The translations under genes and the position numbers were made by a program. DNA of 64,000 nucleotides from Chloroflexota bacterium (GTDB lineage Bacteria > Chloroflexota > Limnocylindria > Limnocylindrales > CSP1-4): contig CAKKPP010000003.1 in the NCBI GenBank assembly GCA_919901745.1, positions 211,742 to 275,741 on the forward strand. Direction: 5' to 3'. Position 1 is the stretch's first letter, and each line of letters begins with the position of its first letter. Below are positions 17,636 through 27,648 of the stretch, piece by piece. The notes below the pieces were generated by a model. That model made no database searches, was not told the DNA's origin, and was given only the letters and a program-made list of their open reading frames with translations.

Positions 17636-17665
17636 TTGACGCCTCGCGAGTTCGCCGCGTAGACT
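17636..17665 (+). promoter_or_regulatory. candidate sigma70-like promoter of the suf regulator operon
   Basis: TTGACG (17636-17641)-N18-TAGACT (17660-17665) immediately upstream of the palindrome. Confidence 0.5.
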
Positions 17666-17666
17666 T

Positions 17667-17691
17667 AATCCCGACGAAATCACTCGGGATT
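17667..17691. promoter_or_regulatory. 25-bp inverted repeat AATCCCGA-N9-TCGGGATT, candidate Rrf2/IscR-type operator
   Basis: Perfect 8-bp arms; the same motif recurs at 22874-22898 before sufU. Confidence 0.7.
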
Positions 17692-17703
17692 GAGGACCGT
17701 TCG

Positions 17704-18207
17704 CTGAGCCATCGACCACAGTTCCACGGCAGCGGCGCCATCGCCTTCTCCACGAAGGGCGAGTACGGCGTGCGCCTCATGGTCCAGCTCGGGCGTCACT
17801 TCGGGACCGGGCCGGCCAGCCTGGCCGAGATCGCCACCGACGAGGACCTGCCGCGGGCCTATCTCGAGCAGCTCGTCGTCAGCCTCCGCGAGGCGGGCCT
17901 CGTGGCCAGCACCCGCGGCGCACATGGCGGCTACGAGCTGACCCGTCACCCGCGCGAGATCCGGATGGGCCAGGTCCTCCGCGCCCTGGAGGGCCCGATC
18001 GTCCCGATGATCTGCGCCAGCGACGATCCCGAACACGCGACGATCTGCGATCGGACCGCCTCGTGCACGGTGAACGTGCTCTGGGTCCGGGTTCGCGACG
18101 CGATCACCGGCGCGCTCGATGGGCTGACCCTCGCCGATCTCGTCCCCGCGCTGTTCACCCCCATCGAAGCCATCACCCCCAAGCAGGGAGCGCTGACCCA
18201 CTCGTGA
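17704..18207 (+). CDS. Rrf2-family (IscR/SufR-like) transcriptional regulator; start codon uncertain
   Basis: FSTKGEYGVRLMVQLGRHFGTGPASLAEIATDEDLPRAYLEQLVVSLREAGLVASTRGAHGGYEL; three Cys in MICASDDPEHATICDRTASC. ORF opens at 17500 but promoter and operator lie at 17636-17691; a CTG at 17704 is a candidate start. Confidence 0.85.
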   Translation: MSHRPQFHGSGAIAFSTKGEYGVRLMVQLGRHFGTGPASLAEIATDEDLPRAYLEQLVVSLREAGLVASTRGAHGGYELTRHPREIRMGQVLRALEGPIVPMICASDDPEHATICDRTASCTVNVLWVRVRDAITGALDGLTLADLVPALFTPIEAITPKQGALTHS

Positions 18208-19121
18208 GCACCGACAGCACCAACGGCACCGGCCCCGCCGGCCACGCCTCGGACAACGACCTCGTCATCCGCGGCCTGCGCGTCGCCCCCGTCGCCAACC
18301 GCGAGACCGAGATCCTCCAGGGGATCGATCTGACCGTCCGCCAGGGCGAGGTTCACGCGATCATGGGCCCGAACGGGTCGGGCAAGACGACGCTCGCCTA
18401 CGCGCTCCTCGGCCATCCGGCCTACGTGGTCACCGGAGGCGAGGTCCACTGGCAGGGTCGCGACATCCTCGCCCTGTCCCCGGACAAGCGTGCGCGCCTC
18501 GGGCTGTTCCTCGCGTTCCAGTACCCCACCGCGATCCCCGGCCTGTCGGTCGCCAGCTTCATCCGGAGCGCGCTCAACGCGAAGCTCCAGGGCATCGACA
18601 AGAACGACGACGTCGACCCGACCGACCCCATGAAGGGCGGCATCTCGATGCGCGACTTCCGCAACAAGATGCGCGAGAAGATGGCGATGCTGAAGATGGA
18701 CGAGAGCTTCGCCGTTCGCTACGTGAACGACGGCTTCTCGGGCGGGGAGAAGAAGCGCCTCGAGATGCTCCAGATGGCCGTCATCGAGCCGCAGATGGCG
18801 ATCCTCGACGAGACCGACTCGGGGCTCGACATCGATGCCCTGCGGATCGTCGCCGAGGGCGTCAACGCGATGCTCAACCCGAACCTCGGCGTCCTGCTGA
18901 TCACGCACTACCAGCGCCTGCTCAACTACATCACGCCCGATCATGTGCATGTCCTGGCCCAGGGCCGGATCGTCAAGAGCGGCGGCAAGGACCTCGCGCT
19001 GCGCCTGGAAGAGGAGGGCTACGGCCCGATCCTTCGTGAGGCCGGCCTCGAGATCAATGTTTCCGACGAGGCCCTCCTGGTGCCCCAGGCGCCCGGCGAG
19101 GATCTGCAGGCGGTGCACTGA
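18204..19121 (+). CDS. sufC: Fe-S cluster assembly ATPase
   Basis: GPNGSGKTTLAYALLGHP, FLAFQYPTAIPGLSVASFIRSALNAK, NDGFSGGEKKRLEMLQMAVIEPQMAILDETDSGLDIDALRIVAEGVN. GTG start overlaps the Rrf2 stop. Confidence 0.94.
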   Translation: MSTDSTNGTGPAGHASDNDLVIRGLRVAPVANRETEILQGIDLTVRQGEVHAIMGPNGSGKTTLAYALLGHPAYVVTGGEVHWQGRDILALSPDKRARLGLFLAFQYPTAIPGLSVASFIRSALNAKLQGIDKNDDVDPTDPMKGGISMRDFRNKMREKMAMLKMDESFAVRYVNDGFSGGEKKRLEMLQMAVIEPQMAILDETDSGLDIDALRIVAEGVNAMLNPNLGVLLITHYQRLLNYITPDHVHVLAQGRIVKSGGKDLALRLEEEGYGPILREAGLEINVSDEALLVPQAPGEDLQAVH

Positions 19122-19123
19122 CC

Positions 19124-20449
19124 GTGGCGATCGCGTCCGACCGACCGCCGACCGACGGGGCGGCTCAGGCTGCTGCCGGGACCCCGGCCGCCCCAGCCTC
19201 GCCGTCTTCGACCGTCGACCGCGGGCCGCTCGACGCGCATGCACTCCGCGCGGAGTTCCCGATCCTCGGCACGACCGCTCACGGCAAGCCGCTCGTCTAT
19301 CTCGATTCCGCGGCCACCAGCCAGAAGCCGCTCGCCGTGATCGAGGCGATGGACACCTACTACCGCGAGTACAACGCGAACGTCCATCGCGGGATCTACC
19401 AGATCGGCGAGCGAGCCACGGCCGGCTATGAAGCCGCGCGGGCAAGCGTCGCCCGGTTCATCAACGCCCCGTCGCCGCGCGAGATCGTCTTCACGCGCAA
19501 CGCGACCGAGGCGATCAACCTCGTCGCGGCGAGCTGGGGTCGCAAGAACATCGGCCGCGGCGACGCGATCATCCTCACCGAGATGGAGCACCACGCGAAC
19601 CTCGTCCCGTGGCAGATCCTCGTCCAGGAGAGGGACGCCGACCTCGAGTTCATCCCGATCACCGACGACGGGATCCTCCGGCTCGACGTGTTCGAGGTGC
19701 TCCTCCGCCTGAAACCGAAGCTCGTCGCGTTCACCCACGTCAGCAACACCCTCGGCACGATCAACCCGGTCGCCGAGATGACCGCGCTGGCCCACGCGGC
19801 GGGAGCGCTCGTGCTCGTCGACGGTGCCCAGGCCGTGCCCCACGTGCCCGTCGACGTCGCGGCGATTGGTGCCGACTTCTACGTCTTCAGCGGCCACAAG
19901 ATGCTCGGGCCCACCGGCTCCGGCGCCCTGTGGGGTCGCCGCGAGCTGCTCGACGCGATGCCCCCGTACATGGCCGGCGGCGAGATGATCCGCGAGGTCC
20001 ACCTCCGCCGGAGCGAGTTCAACGAGGTCCCCTGGAAGTTCGAGGCGGGGACGCCGGACATCGCGGCGGCGATCGGCTTTGGAGCGGCGGCCGAGTACCT
20101 CATGGCCCTCGGCATGGGCCGCGTCCAGGCCCACGAACACGAGCTCATCGTCTACGCCATGGACGCCCTCCGGCGCGAGTTCCCGAACCTGGACCTGTAC
20201 GGCCCACCGGCCGACGCCCGTGGCGGGGTCATCCCGTTCAACGTCCCGGGCGTCCACCCCCACGACGTGGCCCAGGTCCTCGATCGCTCCGGCGTCGCCG
20301 TCCGCGCCGGCCACCACTGCACGATGCCGCTCCACGAGCGGCTCGACCTCGTGGCCACCGCCCGGGCCAGCTTCAACGTCTACTCGACCCGCGAGGACGT
20401 GGACCAGCTCATCGTCGGCCTGCGCGAGGTGTACCGACTCTTCGCGTAG
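19124..20449 (+). CDS. sufS: SufS-type cysteine desulfurase
   Basis: YLDSAATSQKPLAVIEAMDTYYREYNANVHRGIY, VDGAQAVPHVPVDVAAIGADFYVFSGHKMLGPTGSGALWG, VAVRAGHHCTMPLHERL. Confidence 0.95.
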   Translation: MAIASDRPPTDGAAQAAAGTPAAPASPSSTVDRGPLDAHALRAEFPILGTTAHGKPLVYLDSAATSQKPLAVIEAMDTYYREYNANVHRGIYQIGERATAGYEAARASVARFINAPSPREIVFTRNATEAINLVAASWGRKNIGRGDAIILTEMEHHANLVPWQILVQERDADLEFIPITDDGILRLDVFEVLLRLKPKLVAFTHVSNTLGTINPVAEMTALAHAAGALVLVDGAQAVPHVPVDVAAIGADFYVFSGHKMLGPTGSGALWGRRELLDAMPPYMAGGEMIREVHLRRSEFNEVPWKFEAGTPDIAAAIGFGAAAEYLMALGMGRVQAHEHELIVYAMDALRREFPNLDLYGPPADARGGVIPFNVPGVHPHDVAQVLDRSGVAVRAGHHCTMPLHERLDLVATARASFNVYSTREDVDQLIVGLREVYRLFA

Positions 20450-20542: not shown

Positions 20543-21775
20543 ATGGATGCCTATCGCCCCAGGCTGGTCGATCGCCTGATCGACACGCTGCTGACGGAAC
20601 TGCCGGCGATCTTCCTCACGGGTCCGCGCGCCACCGGCAAGACGACCACGGCCGCTCGCCGCGCCCGCACCGTCGTTCGCCTCGACCGCGAGGCCGATGC
20701 CGTCGCATTCCGAGCCGACCCCGATGCCGCGATGCGGGGCCTGCCTGAGCCGCTCCTGCTCGATGAATGGCAGCTGGTCCCAGGAGTGCTTGGAGCGGTC
20801 AAGCGCGCCGTCGATGCCGAGTCCCGGCCGGGGCGGTTTCTCATCACCGGGTCCGTGCGCGGCGACATGGATGGTGATCTCTGGCCGGGGACCGGACGAC
20901 TCACGCGGGTACCCCTGTTCGGCATGACCGTCCGCGAGCAGGCGGGCAACGGTCCTGGGTCAACCTTCCTCGACCGGGTCGCGGCAGCGGCCGACCTTGT
21001 CCCTGCGACAGATACACCGGACCTCCGCGGCTACGTGGAACTGGCCCTCCGCGGGGGCTTTCCGGAGCCCGCCCTGCGATTGGGCGAAAACGCACGGCGC
21101 CATTGGCTCGAGAGCTACATCGATCACCTGCTCACCCGTGACGCCGAGCAGCTTGACGGCGGCCGGGATCCTGCTCGACTGCGCCGATACCTCGAGGCCT
21201 ACGCGCTCAATACGGCGGGGATCGTCGACGAAGGGACACTGTTCGAGGCGGCCGGAATCAACCGCAGGACGGCCCAGGCGTACGAGCGCCTGTTGACGAA
21301 TCTCCTGGTGGTCGAAGCGCTGCCGGCGTGGACCTCGAACCGGCTGAAGCGCCTCGTCCTCAGGCCCAAGCGCCATCTTGTCGATCCGTCGCTCGCCGGT
21401 GCCATCCTCGGTCTCGACACCAATCTCGTGTTCCGCAGCGGCGACCTCCTGGGCCGGCTGCTCGACTCATTCGTTGTCGCGCAGATCCGCGCGGAGATCG
21501 CCGTCTCGGCCGTTCGGCCTCGGCTGTATCACGCTCGCCAGCAACAGGGCAGGCTCGAGATCGACATGATCGCCGAGCTCGCCGGGGGCCGCCTGATCGC
21601 GATCGAGGTGAAGGCCGACGCCGCCCCATCGTTCGATGCCGCGCGCCACCTCGCGACATTGCGCGATCTGCACACCGACACGTTCGTGGCAGGCATCGTG
21701 CTCCATACCGGTCCGCGGACCTACGGTCTCGGCGACCGCCTCATCGCGGCGCCGATCTCGACGCTCTGGGGGTGA
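20543..21775 (+). CDS. AAA (AAA_14) ATPase with DUF4143
   Basis: LPAIFLTGPRATGKTTTAARRARTVVRLD, PLLLDEWQLVPGVLGAVKRAVD, RFLITGSVRGD, ENARRHWLESYIDHLLTRD, LEIDMIAELAGGRLIAIEVKADAAPS (nuclease-like C-terminal motif). Confidence 0.88.
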   Translation: MDAYRPRLVDRLIDTLLTELPAIFLTGPRATGKTTTAARRARTVVRLDREADAVAFRADPDAAMRGLPEPLLLDEWQLVPGVLGAVKRAVDAESRPGRFLITGSVRGDMDGDLWPGTGRLTRVPLFGMTVREQAGNGPGSTFLDRVAAAADLVPATDTPDLRGYVELALRGGFPEPALRLGENARRHWLESYIDHLLTRDAEQLDGGRDPARLRRYLEAYALNTAGIVDEGTLFEAAGINRRTAQAYERLLTNLLVVEALPAWTSNRLKRLVLRPKRHLVDPSLAGAILGLDTNLVFRSGDLLGRLLDSFVVAQIRAEIAVSAVRPRLYHARQQQGRLEIDMIAELAGGRLIAIEVKADAAPSFDAARHLATLRDLHTDTFVAGIVLHTGPRTYGLGDRLIAAPISTLWG

Positions 21776-21945
21776 ACGCCACGCGCGGGCCACTCGGGCT
21801 CTGAGCCCACCGAGGCCACCCCGAGGTGCTGATCCGGTCGGGATCGTCCTCAGAGAGCCGCTTGGTGGAAGAGTGCTGCTCGACGGCGGTCAGTTCCCGC
21901 CACGCGCGGTGGATCCGTAGCCGGGGGATCGGCCAGGCGGCCGCC

Positions 21946-22278
21946 TTACCTGTCGCGCCGGGACGCGATGGCGAAGCCCATGAAGTAGCGCTCGAGCGTT
22001 TTGGCCGTCGAGCCGTACTCGTTGTCGCCCACCAGGAAGTCGCACACGACCTCGCGCGTGCGGGCGATCTCGCGGAGGCGTGGGCCCGCCCAGCGGGGAT
22101 CGGCCATCGTCAGATCGAGGAGCTCGAGCGCGCGATCCAGTGCCGCGTCGAAGCGCGCCGGGTTGCCAGTGGCCTTGGCGCGGATAGCGCGTCCGACATC
22201 GGCGCCAGCGTTCGCAAGTTGTTCCGCGAGCGTCATCGTGTGCCATCGGCCGCTGGCGAGGTCGGTGTGGAGGGTCAT
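21946..22278 (-). CDS. hypothetical protein, presumed partner of the DUF5674 gene
   Basis: MTLHTDLASGRWHTMTLAEQLANAGADVGRAIRAKATGNPARFDAALDRALELLDLTMADPRW; overlaps the DUF5674 stop, helix-rich. Confidence 0.65.
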   Translation of the reverse strand: MTLHTDLASGRWHTMTLAEQLANAGADVGRAIRAKATGNPARFDAALDRALELLDLTMADPRWAGPRLREIARTREVVCDFLVGDNEYGSTAKTLERYFMGFAIASRRDR

Positions 22279-22619
22279 CGTGCGACCAAGCGGTTGACGA
22301 TCGCCGCGATCCGCGCACGCACATCCGGATCTTCAACCGATCGCGTTCGATTGCCCTGGCTCGGGCGGATGTTGATCACCGAGTCGAACTCGATGAACTC
22401 GGGCGTCCCGAAGTCCTTGGGGTAGAGGTTGATTCCCCACAGGTCGCCCTGCCGCGAGCCCTCGCTCAGGAGCAGTGCCTCCTCGTCGGCATGCATCTCG
22501 GCGTCGATCGCCATGATGCCCTGCTCGACATCGACGACCGCCTTCACGAGGTTCCCGAACATGCGCTGGGACATCTCGTCGAGGGTCGCAGTGAGGATCG
22601 GCTCTCGAATGACGTGCAC
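22275..22619 (-). CDS. DUF5674 family protein
   Basis: HVIREPILTATLDEMSQRMFGNLVKAVVDVEQGIMAIDAEMHADEEALLLSEGSRQGDLWGINLYP...INIRPSQGNRTRSVEDP; GTG start chosen within ORF 22275..22655. Confidence 0.7.
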   Translation of the reverse strand: MHVIREPILTATLDEMSQRMFGNLVKAVVDVEQGIMAIDAEMHADEEALLLSEGSRQGDLWGINLYPKDFGTPEFIEFDSVINIRPSQGNRTRSVEDPDVRARIAAIVNRLVAR

Positions 22620-22660
22620 GACTGGGTGCCATCTCCTGGGGAGGACTAGCATCACACATC

Positions 22661-22900
22661 ATGCCGCGAACGACGCTCGACCTCGATCCCGCGGTTCTGC
22701 GCGATTTGCGGCGTCTTGGTGCCCGGGAAGGCAAGAGCGTGGGCCAGGTCGCTTCCGAGCTGCTGGCGCATGCCATCGCAGAGCGGGTCGCGCCGCCGCT
22801 GTCCGAGTTCAACTGGACGAGCGCGGATCTCGGTGTGCCTCTGATCGACCTCCAGGACGCCGAGGCGGTCCATAATCCCGACGGATGCACTCGGGATTGA
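22661..22900 (+). CDS. small RHH/VapB-type antitoxin-like protein without a downstream toxin
   Basis: MPRTTLDLDPAVLRDLRRLGAREGKSVGQVASELLAHAIAE...VPLIDLQDAEAVHNPDGCTRD; the next gene is sufU rather than a PIN toxin. Confidence 0.6.
   Translation: MPRTTLDLDPAVLRDLRRLGAREGKSVGQVASELLAHAIAERVAPPLSEFNWTSADLGVPLIDLQDAEAVHNPDGCTRD
22874..22898. promoter_or_regulatory. 25-bp inverted repeat AATCCCGA-N9-TCGGGATT before sufU
   Basis: Identical arms and spacing to 17667-17691; lies inside the last codons of the antitoxin ORF. Confidence 0.7.
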
Positions 22901-22923
22901 GGGGAGGTACACTCGGCGGCGAG

Positions 22924-23322
22924 ATGGACGATCTGTACCGGGACTACATCCTCGAGCACTACCGGCGGCCGCACAACTTCGGGCCGCTGCAGGCCCCGAC
23001 GGTCAGCCGCGAGGGCGCCAATCCGCTGTGCGGCGACCGGATCACCATCGAGCTCGGGATCCGCAACGGGGTCGTCGACCAGGTCGGGTTCACCGGCCGC
23101 GGTTGCGCGATCAGCCAGGCGTCCGCGTCGCTCCTGACGGACGAGATCAAGGGCAAGACCGTGGAGCAAGTTGTGGCTTTCCGCGCCGACGACCTGCTGG
23201 ATCTCCTCGGCATCGAGATCAGCCCGGCCCGCCTGAAGTGCGCGATGCTCTCGCTCGAGACGGTCGGAGGGGCGCTGGGCGACCTCGATCCAAAGCCGAC
23301 CCCCGCGGCGAACGCCTCATGA
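22924..23322 (+). CDS. sufU: SUF/NifU-like Fe-S scaffold or sulfurtransferase
   Basis: MDDLYRDYILEHYRRPHNFGPL, NPLCGDRITIEL, GFTGRGCAISQASASLLTDEIKGKT, RLKCAMLSLETV. Confidence 0.93.
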   Translation: MDDLYRDYILEHYRRPHNFGPLQAPTVSREGANPLCGDRITIELGIRNGVVDQVGFTGRGCAISQASASLLTDEIKGKTVEQVVAFRADDLLDLLGIEISPARLKCAMLSLETVGGALGDLDPKPTPAANAS

Positions 23323-23480: not shown

Positions 23481-24707
23481 ATGCCCAAGTCCTACAGCGA
23501 CCTCCTCCGCGAGGCCCGCGCCGCCGTCCCGGAGATCGCGCCGCGCGAAGCCAACGACCGCCGCGCGGCCGGAACCCTGACGATCATCGACGTCCGCGAA
23601 GTCGAGGAGTGGGAGCAGGGCTTCGTGCCCGATGCCCTGCACATCGGCCGCGGCTACCTCGAGATGAACATCGAGGCGTTCATCCCAGAACGCGATCGTC
23701 CCATGGCGCTCTACTGCTCCAGCGAGATCCGCTCATATTTCGCGGCACGCGATCTGAAGGCGATGGGCTACCAGGATGTTTCCGTCATCAGCGGCGGATT
23801 CAACGCGTGGAAGTCGGCCGGGCTCCCGTGGTCGATGCCCGTCGCCCTGACCAGCGAGCAGAAGATCCGCTATTCCCGCCACCTGCTGATGCCCGAGGTG
23901 GGCGCCGAGGGCCAGGCCAAGCTGCTCGGCTCGAAGGTGCTGCTCATCGGGGCCGGCGGGTTGGGCTCATCGGCGGCGCTCTATCTCGCGGCCGCCGGGG
24001 TGGGCACCATCGGGATCATCGACTTCGACGTGGTCGATCTGTCCAACCTGCAGCGCCAGGTCATCCACGCCAACGACCGGATCGGCGAGCGCAAGACCGA
24101 GTCGGCCAGGCGCACGATCAACGCCCTGAACCCCGACGTGAACGTGCTGCTCCACGACGAGATGCTCATCGCCGCGAACGTCGAGCGGGTCATCGCCGGC
24201 TACGACGTGATCGTCGATGGCACCGACACGTTCGAGACCCGCTACCTGCTCAACGATGCCGCGATCGCCCTGCGCATCCCGGTGGTCCACGCCAGTGTCT
24301 TCCGGTTCGAGGGCCAGCTGACCGCGTTCGTGCCCTACGAGGGTCCCTGCTATCGCTGCCTCTATCCCACCCCGCCACCACCGGAGATGGCCCCCGGCTG
24401 CTCCGTCGCCGGCGTCCTCGGGGTGGTCCCCGGGATCATGGGTCTGCTCCAGGCCAACGAGGCGATCAAGCTCCTCCTCGGGATCGGTGACAGCCTCGCC
24501 GGGCGACTCGTCCTGTTCGATGCCCTCGATGCCTCGTTCACCGAGCTCCGCCTGCGCCGCGATCCCGACTGCCCGGTCTGCTCCGATGCCGCCGTCGCGG
24601 CCCGCGCAGCCGGCACCCCGCTGGCCGTCCCCGCGTTCGGTGCCGATGCGCCGTTCGTCCTCGGCGGCGGTCTCGGGGCCGGAGCCGTGGCGGGGGGCGG
24701 CGCATGA
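23481..24707 (+). CDS. rhodanese-E1 fusion (N-terminal sulfurtransferase + MoeB/ThiF adenylyltransferase), copy 1
   Basis: Rhodanese loop YCSSEIRS; E1: LLIGAGGLGSSAALYLAAAGVGTIGIIDFDVVDLSNLQRQVIH, GPCYRCLYPTPPPPEMAPGCSVAGVLG, DPDCPVCSD. Confidence 0.93.
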   Translation: MPKSYSDLLREARAAVPEIAPREANDRRAAGTLTIIDVREVEEWEQGFVPDALHIGRGYLEMNIEAFIPERDRPMALYCSSEIRSYFAARDLKAMGYQDVSVISGGFNAWKSAGLPWSMPVALTSEQKIRYSRHLLMPEVGAEGQAKLLGSKVLLIGAGGLGSSAALYLAAAGVGTIGIIDFDVVDLSNLQRQVIHANDRIGERKTESARRTINALNPDVNVLLHDEMLIAANVERVIAGYDVIVDGTDTFETRYLLNDAAIALRIPVVHASVFRFEGQLTAFVPYEGPCYRCLYPTPPPPEMAPGCSVAGVLGVVPGIMGLLQANEAIKLLLGIGDSLAGRLVLFDALDASFTELRLRRDPDCPVCSDAAVAARAAGTPLAVPAFGADAPFVLGGGLGAGAVAGGGA

Positions 24708-24709
24708 GC
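23833..24709 (+). repeat. 877-bp direct repeat, copy 1 (E1 coding region)
   Basis: Line-by-line comparison with 26772-27648 shows no difference; constant offset of 2939 bp; diverges at both edges. Confidence 0.95.
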
Positions 24710-26419: not shown

Positions 26420-27646
26420 ATGGCGAAGTCCTACGCCGATCTCCTGCGCGAGGCGCGGGAGCAGATCCCGGAGGTCACCCCGGCCGCTGCCGATGGCCTC
26501 CGGGACGGCCGCGGTGCGTTGATCGTCGACGTCCGCGAGGACGAGGAGTGGGACGCCGGGCACGTGCCCGGCGCCGCCCACATCTCGAAGAGCTACATCG
26601 AACAGCGGATCGAGGACGCGGCCCCCGGCCGTGATCGCCCGATCGTCCTGTACTGTGCCGGAGGCGTCCGCTCGCTGTTCGCGGCGCAGACGCTCGCAGC
26701 GATGGGCTACACCGACGTCACGTCGATGCTCGGGGGCTTCCAGCGCTGGAAGGCCGAGGGGCGCGAGATCGCGATGCCCGTCGCCCTGACCAGCGAGCAG
26801 AAGATCCGCTATTCCCGCCACCTGCTGATGCCCGAGGTGGGCGCCGAGGGCCAGGCCAAGCTGCTCGGCTCGAAGGTGCTGCTCATCGGGGCCGGCGGGT
26901 TGGGCTCATCGGCGGCGCTCTATCTCGCGGCCGCCGGGGTGGGCACCATCGGGATCATCGACTTCGACGTGGTCGATCTGTCCAACCTGCAGCGCCAGGT
27001 CATCCACGCCAACGACCGGATCGGCGAGCGCAAGACCGAGTCGGCCAGGCGCACGATCAACGCCCTGAACCCCGACGTGAACGTGCTGCTCCACGACGAG
27101 ATGCTCATCGCCGCGAACGTCGAGCGGGTCATCGCCGGCTACGACGTGATCGTCGATGGCACCGACACGTTCGAGACCCGCTACCTGCTCAACGATGCCG
27201 CGATCGCCCTGCGCATCCCGGTGGTCCACGCCAGTGTCTTCCGGTTCGAGGGCCAGCTGACCGCGTTCGTGCCCTACGAGGGTCCCTGCTATCGCTGCCT
27301 CTATCCCACCCCGCCACCACCGGAGATGGCCCCCGGCTGCTCCGTCGCCGGCGTCCTCGGGGTGGTCCCCGGGATCATGGGTCTGCTCCAGGCCAACGAG
27401 GCGATCAAGCTCCTCCTCGGGATCGGTGACAGCCTCGCCGGGCGACTCGTCCTGTTCGATGCCCTCGATGCCTCGTTCACCGAGCTCCGCCTGCGCCGCG
27501 ATCCCGACTGCCCGGTCTGCTCCGATGCCGCCGTCGCGGCCCGCGCAGCCGGCACCCCGCTGGCCGTCCCCGCGTTCGGTGCCGATGCGCCGTTCGTCCT
27601 CGGCGGCGGTCTCGGGGCCGGAGCCGTGGCGGGGGGCGGCGCATGA
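26420..27646 (+). CDS. rhodanese-E1 fusion (N-terminal sulfurtransferase + MoeB/ThiF adenylyltransferase), copy 2
   Basis: Rhodanese loop YCAGGVRS; E1 half identical to copy 1. Confidence 0.93.
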   Translation: MAKSYADLLREAREQIPEVTPAAADGLRDGRGALIVDVREDEEWDAGHVPGAAHISKSYIEQRIEDAAPGRDRPIVLYCAGGVRSLFAAQTLAAMGYTDVTSMLGGFQRWKAEGREIAMPVALTSEQKIRYSRHLLMPEVGAEGQAKLLGSKVLLIGAGGLGSSAALYLAAAGVGTIGIIDFDVVDLSNLQRQVIHANDRIGERKTESARRTINALNPDVNVLLHDEMLIAANVERVIAGYDVIVDGTDTFETRYLLNDAAIALRIPVVHASVFRFEGQLTAFVPYEGPCYRCLYPTPPPPEMAPGCSVAGVLGVVPGIMGLLQANEAIKLLLGIGDSLAGRLVLFDALDASFTELRLRRDPDCPVCSDAAVAARAAGTPLAVPAFGADAPFVLGGGLGAGAVAGGGA

Positions 27647-27648
27647 GC
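26772..27648 (+). repeat. 877-bp direct repeat, copy 2 (E1 coding region)
   Basis: See copy 1 at 23833-24709. Confidence 0.95.

Follow-up and report, generated by a model that had tools for sequence, protein, structure and literature searches.

The 64,000-nt stretch of Chloroflexota DNA analyzed here (the window) carries two perfect copies of a 25-bp inverted repeat, AATCCCGA-N9-TCGGGATT, at positions 17667-17691 and 22874-22898, beside SUF genes for iron-sulfur (Fe-S) cluster assembly and a gene for an Rrf2-type regulator, which raises the question of whether the repeat is an operator and, if so, which protein binds it and to what effect. Both copies lie exactly where the original prediction had placed them: operator 1 (AATCCCGACGAAATCACTCGGGATT, 17667..17691, + strand) spans the predicted transcription start of rrf2, and operator 2 (AATCCCGACGGATGCACTCGGGATT, 22874..22898, + strand) is upstream of sufU. 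The gene order is rrf2-sufC-sufS, about 2.4 kb of intervening DNA, sufU, and a rhodanese-MoeB fusion gene. Profile scores above the respective cut-offs identified sufC (18204..19121, + strand; TIGR01978, 321 bits), sufS (19124..20449, + strand; TIGR01979, 574 bits) and sufU (22924..23322, + strand; TIGR01994, 106 bits), while the fusion gene beside sufU (23481..24707, + strand) is a neighbor kept in relatives.

The DNA between sufS and sufU (20543-22655) encodes an AAA/DUF4143 ATPase and two small genes on the reverse strand, one of them DUF5674; in many relatives, unlike in the window, sufU lies directly behind sufS. A short reading frame at 22661-22900, with an antitoxin-like start (MPRTTLDLDPAVLRDLRR) and no Pfam match, overlaps operator 2 with its 3′ end. 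We also observed 877 identical bases at 23833-24709 and 26772-27648, shared by two rhodanese-MoeB fusion genes that lie 2.9 kb apart and differ in their N-terminal parts; this identity could reflect recent gene conversion, duplication or an assembly artefact.

Allowing up to three mismatches, we found three operator matches in the window compared with 0.27 expected from shuffled sequence, the third of which (19651, 3 mismatches) lies inside sufS and was dismissed. The genome searched comprised 3.04 Mb in 44 contigs and was 92% complete. With at most one mismatch, it yielded three matches, namely the two window copies and a third operator, AATTCCGATAATGGCACTCGGGATT, which has one mismatch and is located at C17:101468, 129 bp upstream of the aligned start of sufB, itself followed by a second gene with a SUFBD core (sufB-sufD). 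The genome-wide search that had been proposed for sites at sufBD thus returned a near-perfect copy directly before these genes. The original prediction of a two-site regulon is accordingly replaced by one of three sites, and the observation that there was no other copy is correct within the window and incorrect for the genome as a whole. A consensus derived from the relatives, AWWYCYGA-N9-TCRGRWWT, had exactly three exact matches in the 3.04 Mb, each at a SUF operon, and the reversed-pattern control gave 0 matches in the genome. Two 2-mismatch matches, C7:127067 and C19:1723, were set aside as apparently occupying non-promoter positions, one being within a long reading frame and the other apparently past the 3′ ends of its neighbors.

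The association of the operator with these genes is conserved. An operator was present within 350 bp of rrf2 in 26/30 members of the family, and sufB was preceded by one in 27/30 family and order members. Among 80 named loci, nearly all labelled Chloroflexi or Chloroflexota and some Candidatus Limnocylindrales, sufC was downstream of rrf2 in every case, and the operator preceded rrf2-sufC in 63 of the 76 with enough upstream DNA; because the named set overlaps the unnamed set, the 63/76 and 26/30 counts are not independent. When 300 genomes were scanned with the pattern, its reversed form gave no match in the 23 genomes that belong to the same family as the window. The situation at sufU depended on gene arrangement: an operator was present in 0/14 cases where sufS ends 90 bp or less upstream, compared with 10/16 in which sufU is detached or separated by a larger gap, and in these ten it lies about 50-60 bp 5′ of the ATG. 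A one-sided Fisher test of this contrast gave 2.7e-4, to be read as a guide figure since the 90-bp limit was set post hoc and the genomes are related. The window sufU is of the detached type.

The motif had been proposed to be possibly lineage-specific, which did not hold up: in other families of the Chloroflexota, too, this operator is found in front of rrf2-sufC or sufB, and when SufU-like genes are included, it stands before one of these genes in three further families in all. Operator-like sites also occurred elsewhere. In two relatives, single sites are found at feoA and before an FTR1 iron permease gene (L067 1005-1029 and L076 1115-1139); the regulon might therefore reach into iron uptake, which we treat as a lead only. 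Two loci (L159, L160) have an operator before an uncharacterized gene and a rhodanese-type sulfurtransferase gene. Two more distant families have sites before genes for a periplasmic iron-complex binding protein and before other genes, and one more distant Chloroflexota family has palindromes that are nearly perfect and type 1-like, matching at up to 23/25 positions, before iron-complex binding protein genes (L191, L197, L199). Such sites at iron-uptake and other genes are either isolated cases or possibly targets of a different regulator, and are likewise leads only.

The position of the operator relative to promoter elements bears on how it might work. The predicted TTGACG-N18-TAGACT promoter of rrf2-sufC-sufS can be read directly in the sequence, with a −35 box at 17636..17641 and a −10 box at 17660..17665 (both + strand, spacer 18), the latter ending one base 5′ of operator 1. 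Most relatives retain the TTGACG −35 box with its spacing to the operator unchanged, and TAxACT abuts the operator in them, such that the operator starts zero to two bases after the TTGACG/TAxACT promoter. At sufB, the operator contains a −10 GATAAT, with TTGACG 17 bases upstream. Before sufU there is a −10-like TACACT (22908..22913, + strand), and a TAxACT about 10 nt 5′ of the ATG is kept at sufU in relatives; the window operator overlaps the −35 region of this promoter. If TACACT is the sufU −10, the center of operator 2 would fall near −34, and the sufU transcript would have almost no leader. Given these positions, occlusion of RNA polymerase would be possible at all three promoters.

The same geometry speaks to the idea that the inverted repeat works in RNA, as a leader hairpin or attenuator, rather than as a DNA operator. 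Most of the repeat at rrf2 would indeed fall within the 5′ leader, as this idea requires, but the sufB copy holds the −10 and the sufU copy precedes the predicted start; neither would be transcribed as a unit, and a whole RNA element is impossible at these two genes. Conservation is, moreover, found in the operator arms and not in the loop, and we consider a role in RNA highly improbable. A second alternative concerns sufU alone, where the regulator might activate transcription, in the manner of apo-IscR at E. coli suf, and act as a repressor at the other two promoters. With the operator at the −35 region and no good −35 there, activation would be possible: the conserved TACACT 10 nt 5′ of the ATG has no TTGACA-like −35 in front of it, and several relatives have the operator in that place. 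In other relatives, however, a TTGACG/TAxxAT promoter stands ahead of the sufU operator, which is a repressor arrangement, and sufU genes inside the operon keep TAxACT without an operator. Activation at sufU is thus an unlikely reading, and we favor repression at all three promoters.

The operator also touches on where rrf2 begins. Mechanical open reading frame calling placed the start at a GTG (17500) upstream of the promoter, and from the operator up to the conserved core, the rrf2 frame of the window contains no ATG, GTG or TTG. Translation most likely begins, judging from sequence, at a CTG (17704-17706) that lies 8 nt 3′ of a GAGG (17692..17695, + strand), giving a gene for a Pfam Rrf2 protein at 17704..18207 (+ strand). 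An in-frame Shine-Dalgarno-CTG pair is present in 60/80 relatives; counted over all frames, CTG codons at Shine-Dalgarno spacing numbered 64 in frame compared with 3 to 8 for the remaining two frames combined, the figure varying with the region that was scanned, and the distance from this pair to the core varies among relatives in multiples of three. In other relatives, as in the sister family, the homologous position is occupied by ATG, GTG or TTG. For comparison, the sufB start was ATG in 26/30 and the sufU start ATG in 29/30. An ATC at 17740 was ruled out as the rrf2 start, with the FHGSGA extension and the Shine-Dalgarno sequence being common to relatives. GAGG does follow both operators, as had been noted, but it is not part of a shared motif: the frame evidence at rrf2 identifies it there as the Shine-Dalgarno sequence, whereas at sufU it is promoter spacer, too far from the ATG and not conserved. 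As the sufU operator of relatives is not followed by GAGG, we rejected it as a part of the operator.

We then compared the operator with known IscR sites. The E. coli type 1 consensus is ATASYYGACTRWWWYAGTCRRSTAT (PMC3899308), and the operator is a 25-bp near-palindrome that fits it, in line with the type 1 size and symmetry originally suggested. The rrf2 operator matched at 19/25 positions, the top score of all 25-mers in the window, and the sufU operator at 18/25, tied for second; by the same scoring, P. aeruginosa sites reached 17 and 20, and the sufU site of one relative, ATACCCGACTTCACTGGTCGGGTAT, reached 21. Because of these scores, the arms, which had been thought to set the motif apart from E. 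coli sites, are better regarded as a variant of the type 1 site. The Chloroflexota operator shares with the sites of E. coli and P. aeruginosa IscR (PMC3899308, PMC12594620) its 25-bp length, its center, the core GAC-N7-GTC and promoter overlap, and in each case the regulator gene heads an Fe-S assembly operon. The outer three bases are AAT/ATT rather than the ATA/TAT of type 1 sites, although the outer AAT of one arm is also found in P. aeruginosa site A (AATCCTGAGTAATTTGATCGGTCTT), and the operon is SUF rather than ISC. A further parallel is RisR of Myxococcus xanthus, an Rrf2 repressor of isc and suf that recognizes a GAC-N7-GTC core over promoter elements (PMC9973013). The Chloroflexota system resembles it in the Rrf2 protein, the core and the placement of the site, and differs in that RisR has both ISC and SUF targets, is probably a [4Fe-4S] protein and belongs to another phylum (PMC9973013).

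The protein encoded by rrf2 belongs to the Rrf2 superfamily (Pfam Rrf2, 125.7 bits against a cut-off of 30, E = 1.7e-36) and passes TIGR00738 (114.3 against 73.3 bits). Its score with the NCBIfam IscR equivalog TIGR02010 was 86.9 bits, below the cut-off of 207.55. The best NCBIfam score, 127.9 bits, was obtained with CymR and was also below the cut-off (195). CymR of Firmicutes is likewise close among relatives with solved structures, but in the alignment the Cys triad is missing from its solved chains, and the Chloroflexota locus has no cysteine-metabolism context. The nearest solved relative is PDB 4cic (BadM/Rrf2-family regulator, E = 2e-36), which we take to be Thermincola potens IscR; it shares the DDPEH stretch between the ligand Cys, and differs in having His at the Glu8 position and other residues at the Cys positions of the deposited chain.

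The three Cys that had been put forward as candidate Fe-S ligands were invariant, as were Glu8 and YLEQ, in all 80 loci, and a ligand role for the three Cys is predicted. E. coli and P. aeruginosa IscR also have three Cys, spaced C-x5-C-x5-C as opposed to C-x10-C-x5-C in the Chloroflexota regulator. IscR contacts DNA through Glu43, Gln44 and Arg59 (PMC9338935, PMC9973013), and in the alignment the equivalents of all three are kept in the regulator, Glu43 and Arg59 being shared with E. coli and P. aeruginosa IscR. At the position of IscR His107, however, Asn was found in 76/80 and His in 1/80, such that the regulator does not keep the IscR ligand set of three Cys plus His107; in the alignment, more distant members of the class keep both Glu8 and the His. 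In ScNsrR, Asp8 of the other subunit is the fourth cluster ligand (PMC5411485), and counting from the core start Glu8 aligns with this Asp8 in 80/80, which makes a Cys3-Glu8 cluster the natural guess for the Chloroflexota regulator. We tentatively propose, at clearly less than even odds, that the Limnocylindrales have an IscR-type SUF repressor with a type 1 operator in which sensor and dosage control have changed jointly: the fourth ligand has moved from His107 to a cross-subunit Glu8, as in NsrR/RsrR, giving a new Cys3-Glu SUF sensor, and a weak CTG start, kept across many genera although sufB and sufU mostly begin with ATG, limits the amount of the autorepressor.

It is also conceivable that another protein binds the operator, such as an Rrf2 paralogue, an ArsR-type SufR or a DtxR-type iron regulator, with the neighboring Rrf2 protein being incidental. 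The genome encodes three further Rrf2 proteins, and similar sites precede iron-uptake genes in other families and, in one, a DtxR-like gene, so that a second regulator with a similar site may act there. We nonetheless regard this as improbable: the operator stays beside rrf2 across families, none was found in the flanks of the three paralogues, and the site agrees with the IscR type 1 consensus while the Rrf2 protein retains the IscR contact residues. Binding by the neighboring Rrf2 protein, as first predicted, is thus the most likely case.

From this, we concluded that the operator is a real, conserved element of an IscR-like SUF feedback circuit whose binding and function are predicted. With a probability of roughly 85%, the neighboring IscR-like Rrf2 dimer, carrying an Fe-S cluster, binds the operator and represses the three SUF promoters; we infer the binding, the presence of a cluster as well as its type and ligands, and whether regulation is negative or positive. 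When clusters are plentiful, the cluster-bearing dimer would occupy the operator and block RNA polymerase at the rrf2-sufC-sufS, sufU-moeB and sufB-sufD promoters. Under iron or cluster shortage the cluster would be lost, and the SUF genes and the repressor gene itself would be derepressed, the outcome being negative feedback on Fe-S cluster supply.

The literature examined yielded no description of an Fe-S regulon from this uncultured Chloroflexota group, for which the three promoters would make up a compact SUF feedback circuit. Gene calling with ATG, GTG and TTG misplaces the rrf2 start and buries the promoter and operator in a false frame, as a consequence of the CTG start. The unusual ligand set and the unusual start codon make this IscR-like regulator of interest in its own right, and since sufU carries a separate operator only where it is detached, it can serve as a natural test case for operon logic. 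More broadly, the findings show that type 1 IscR-like operators extend far beyond the Proteobacteria.
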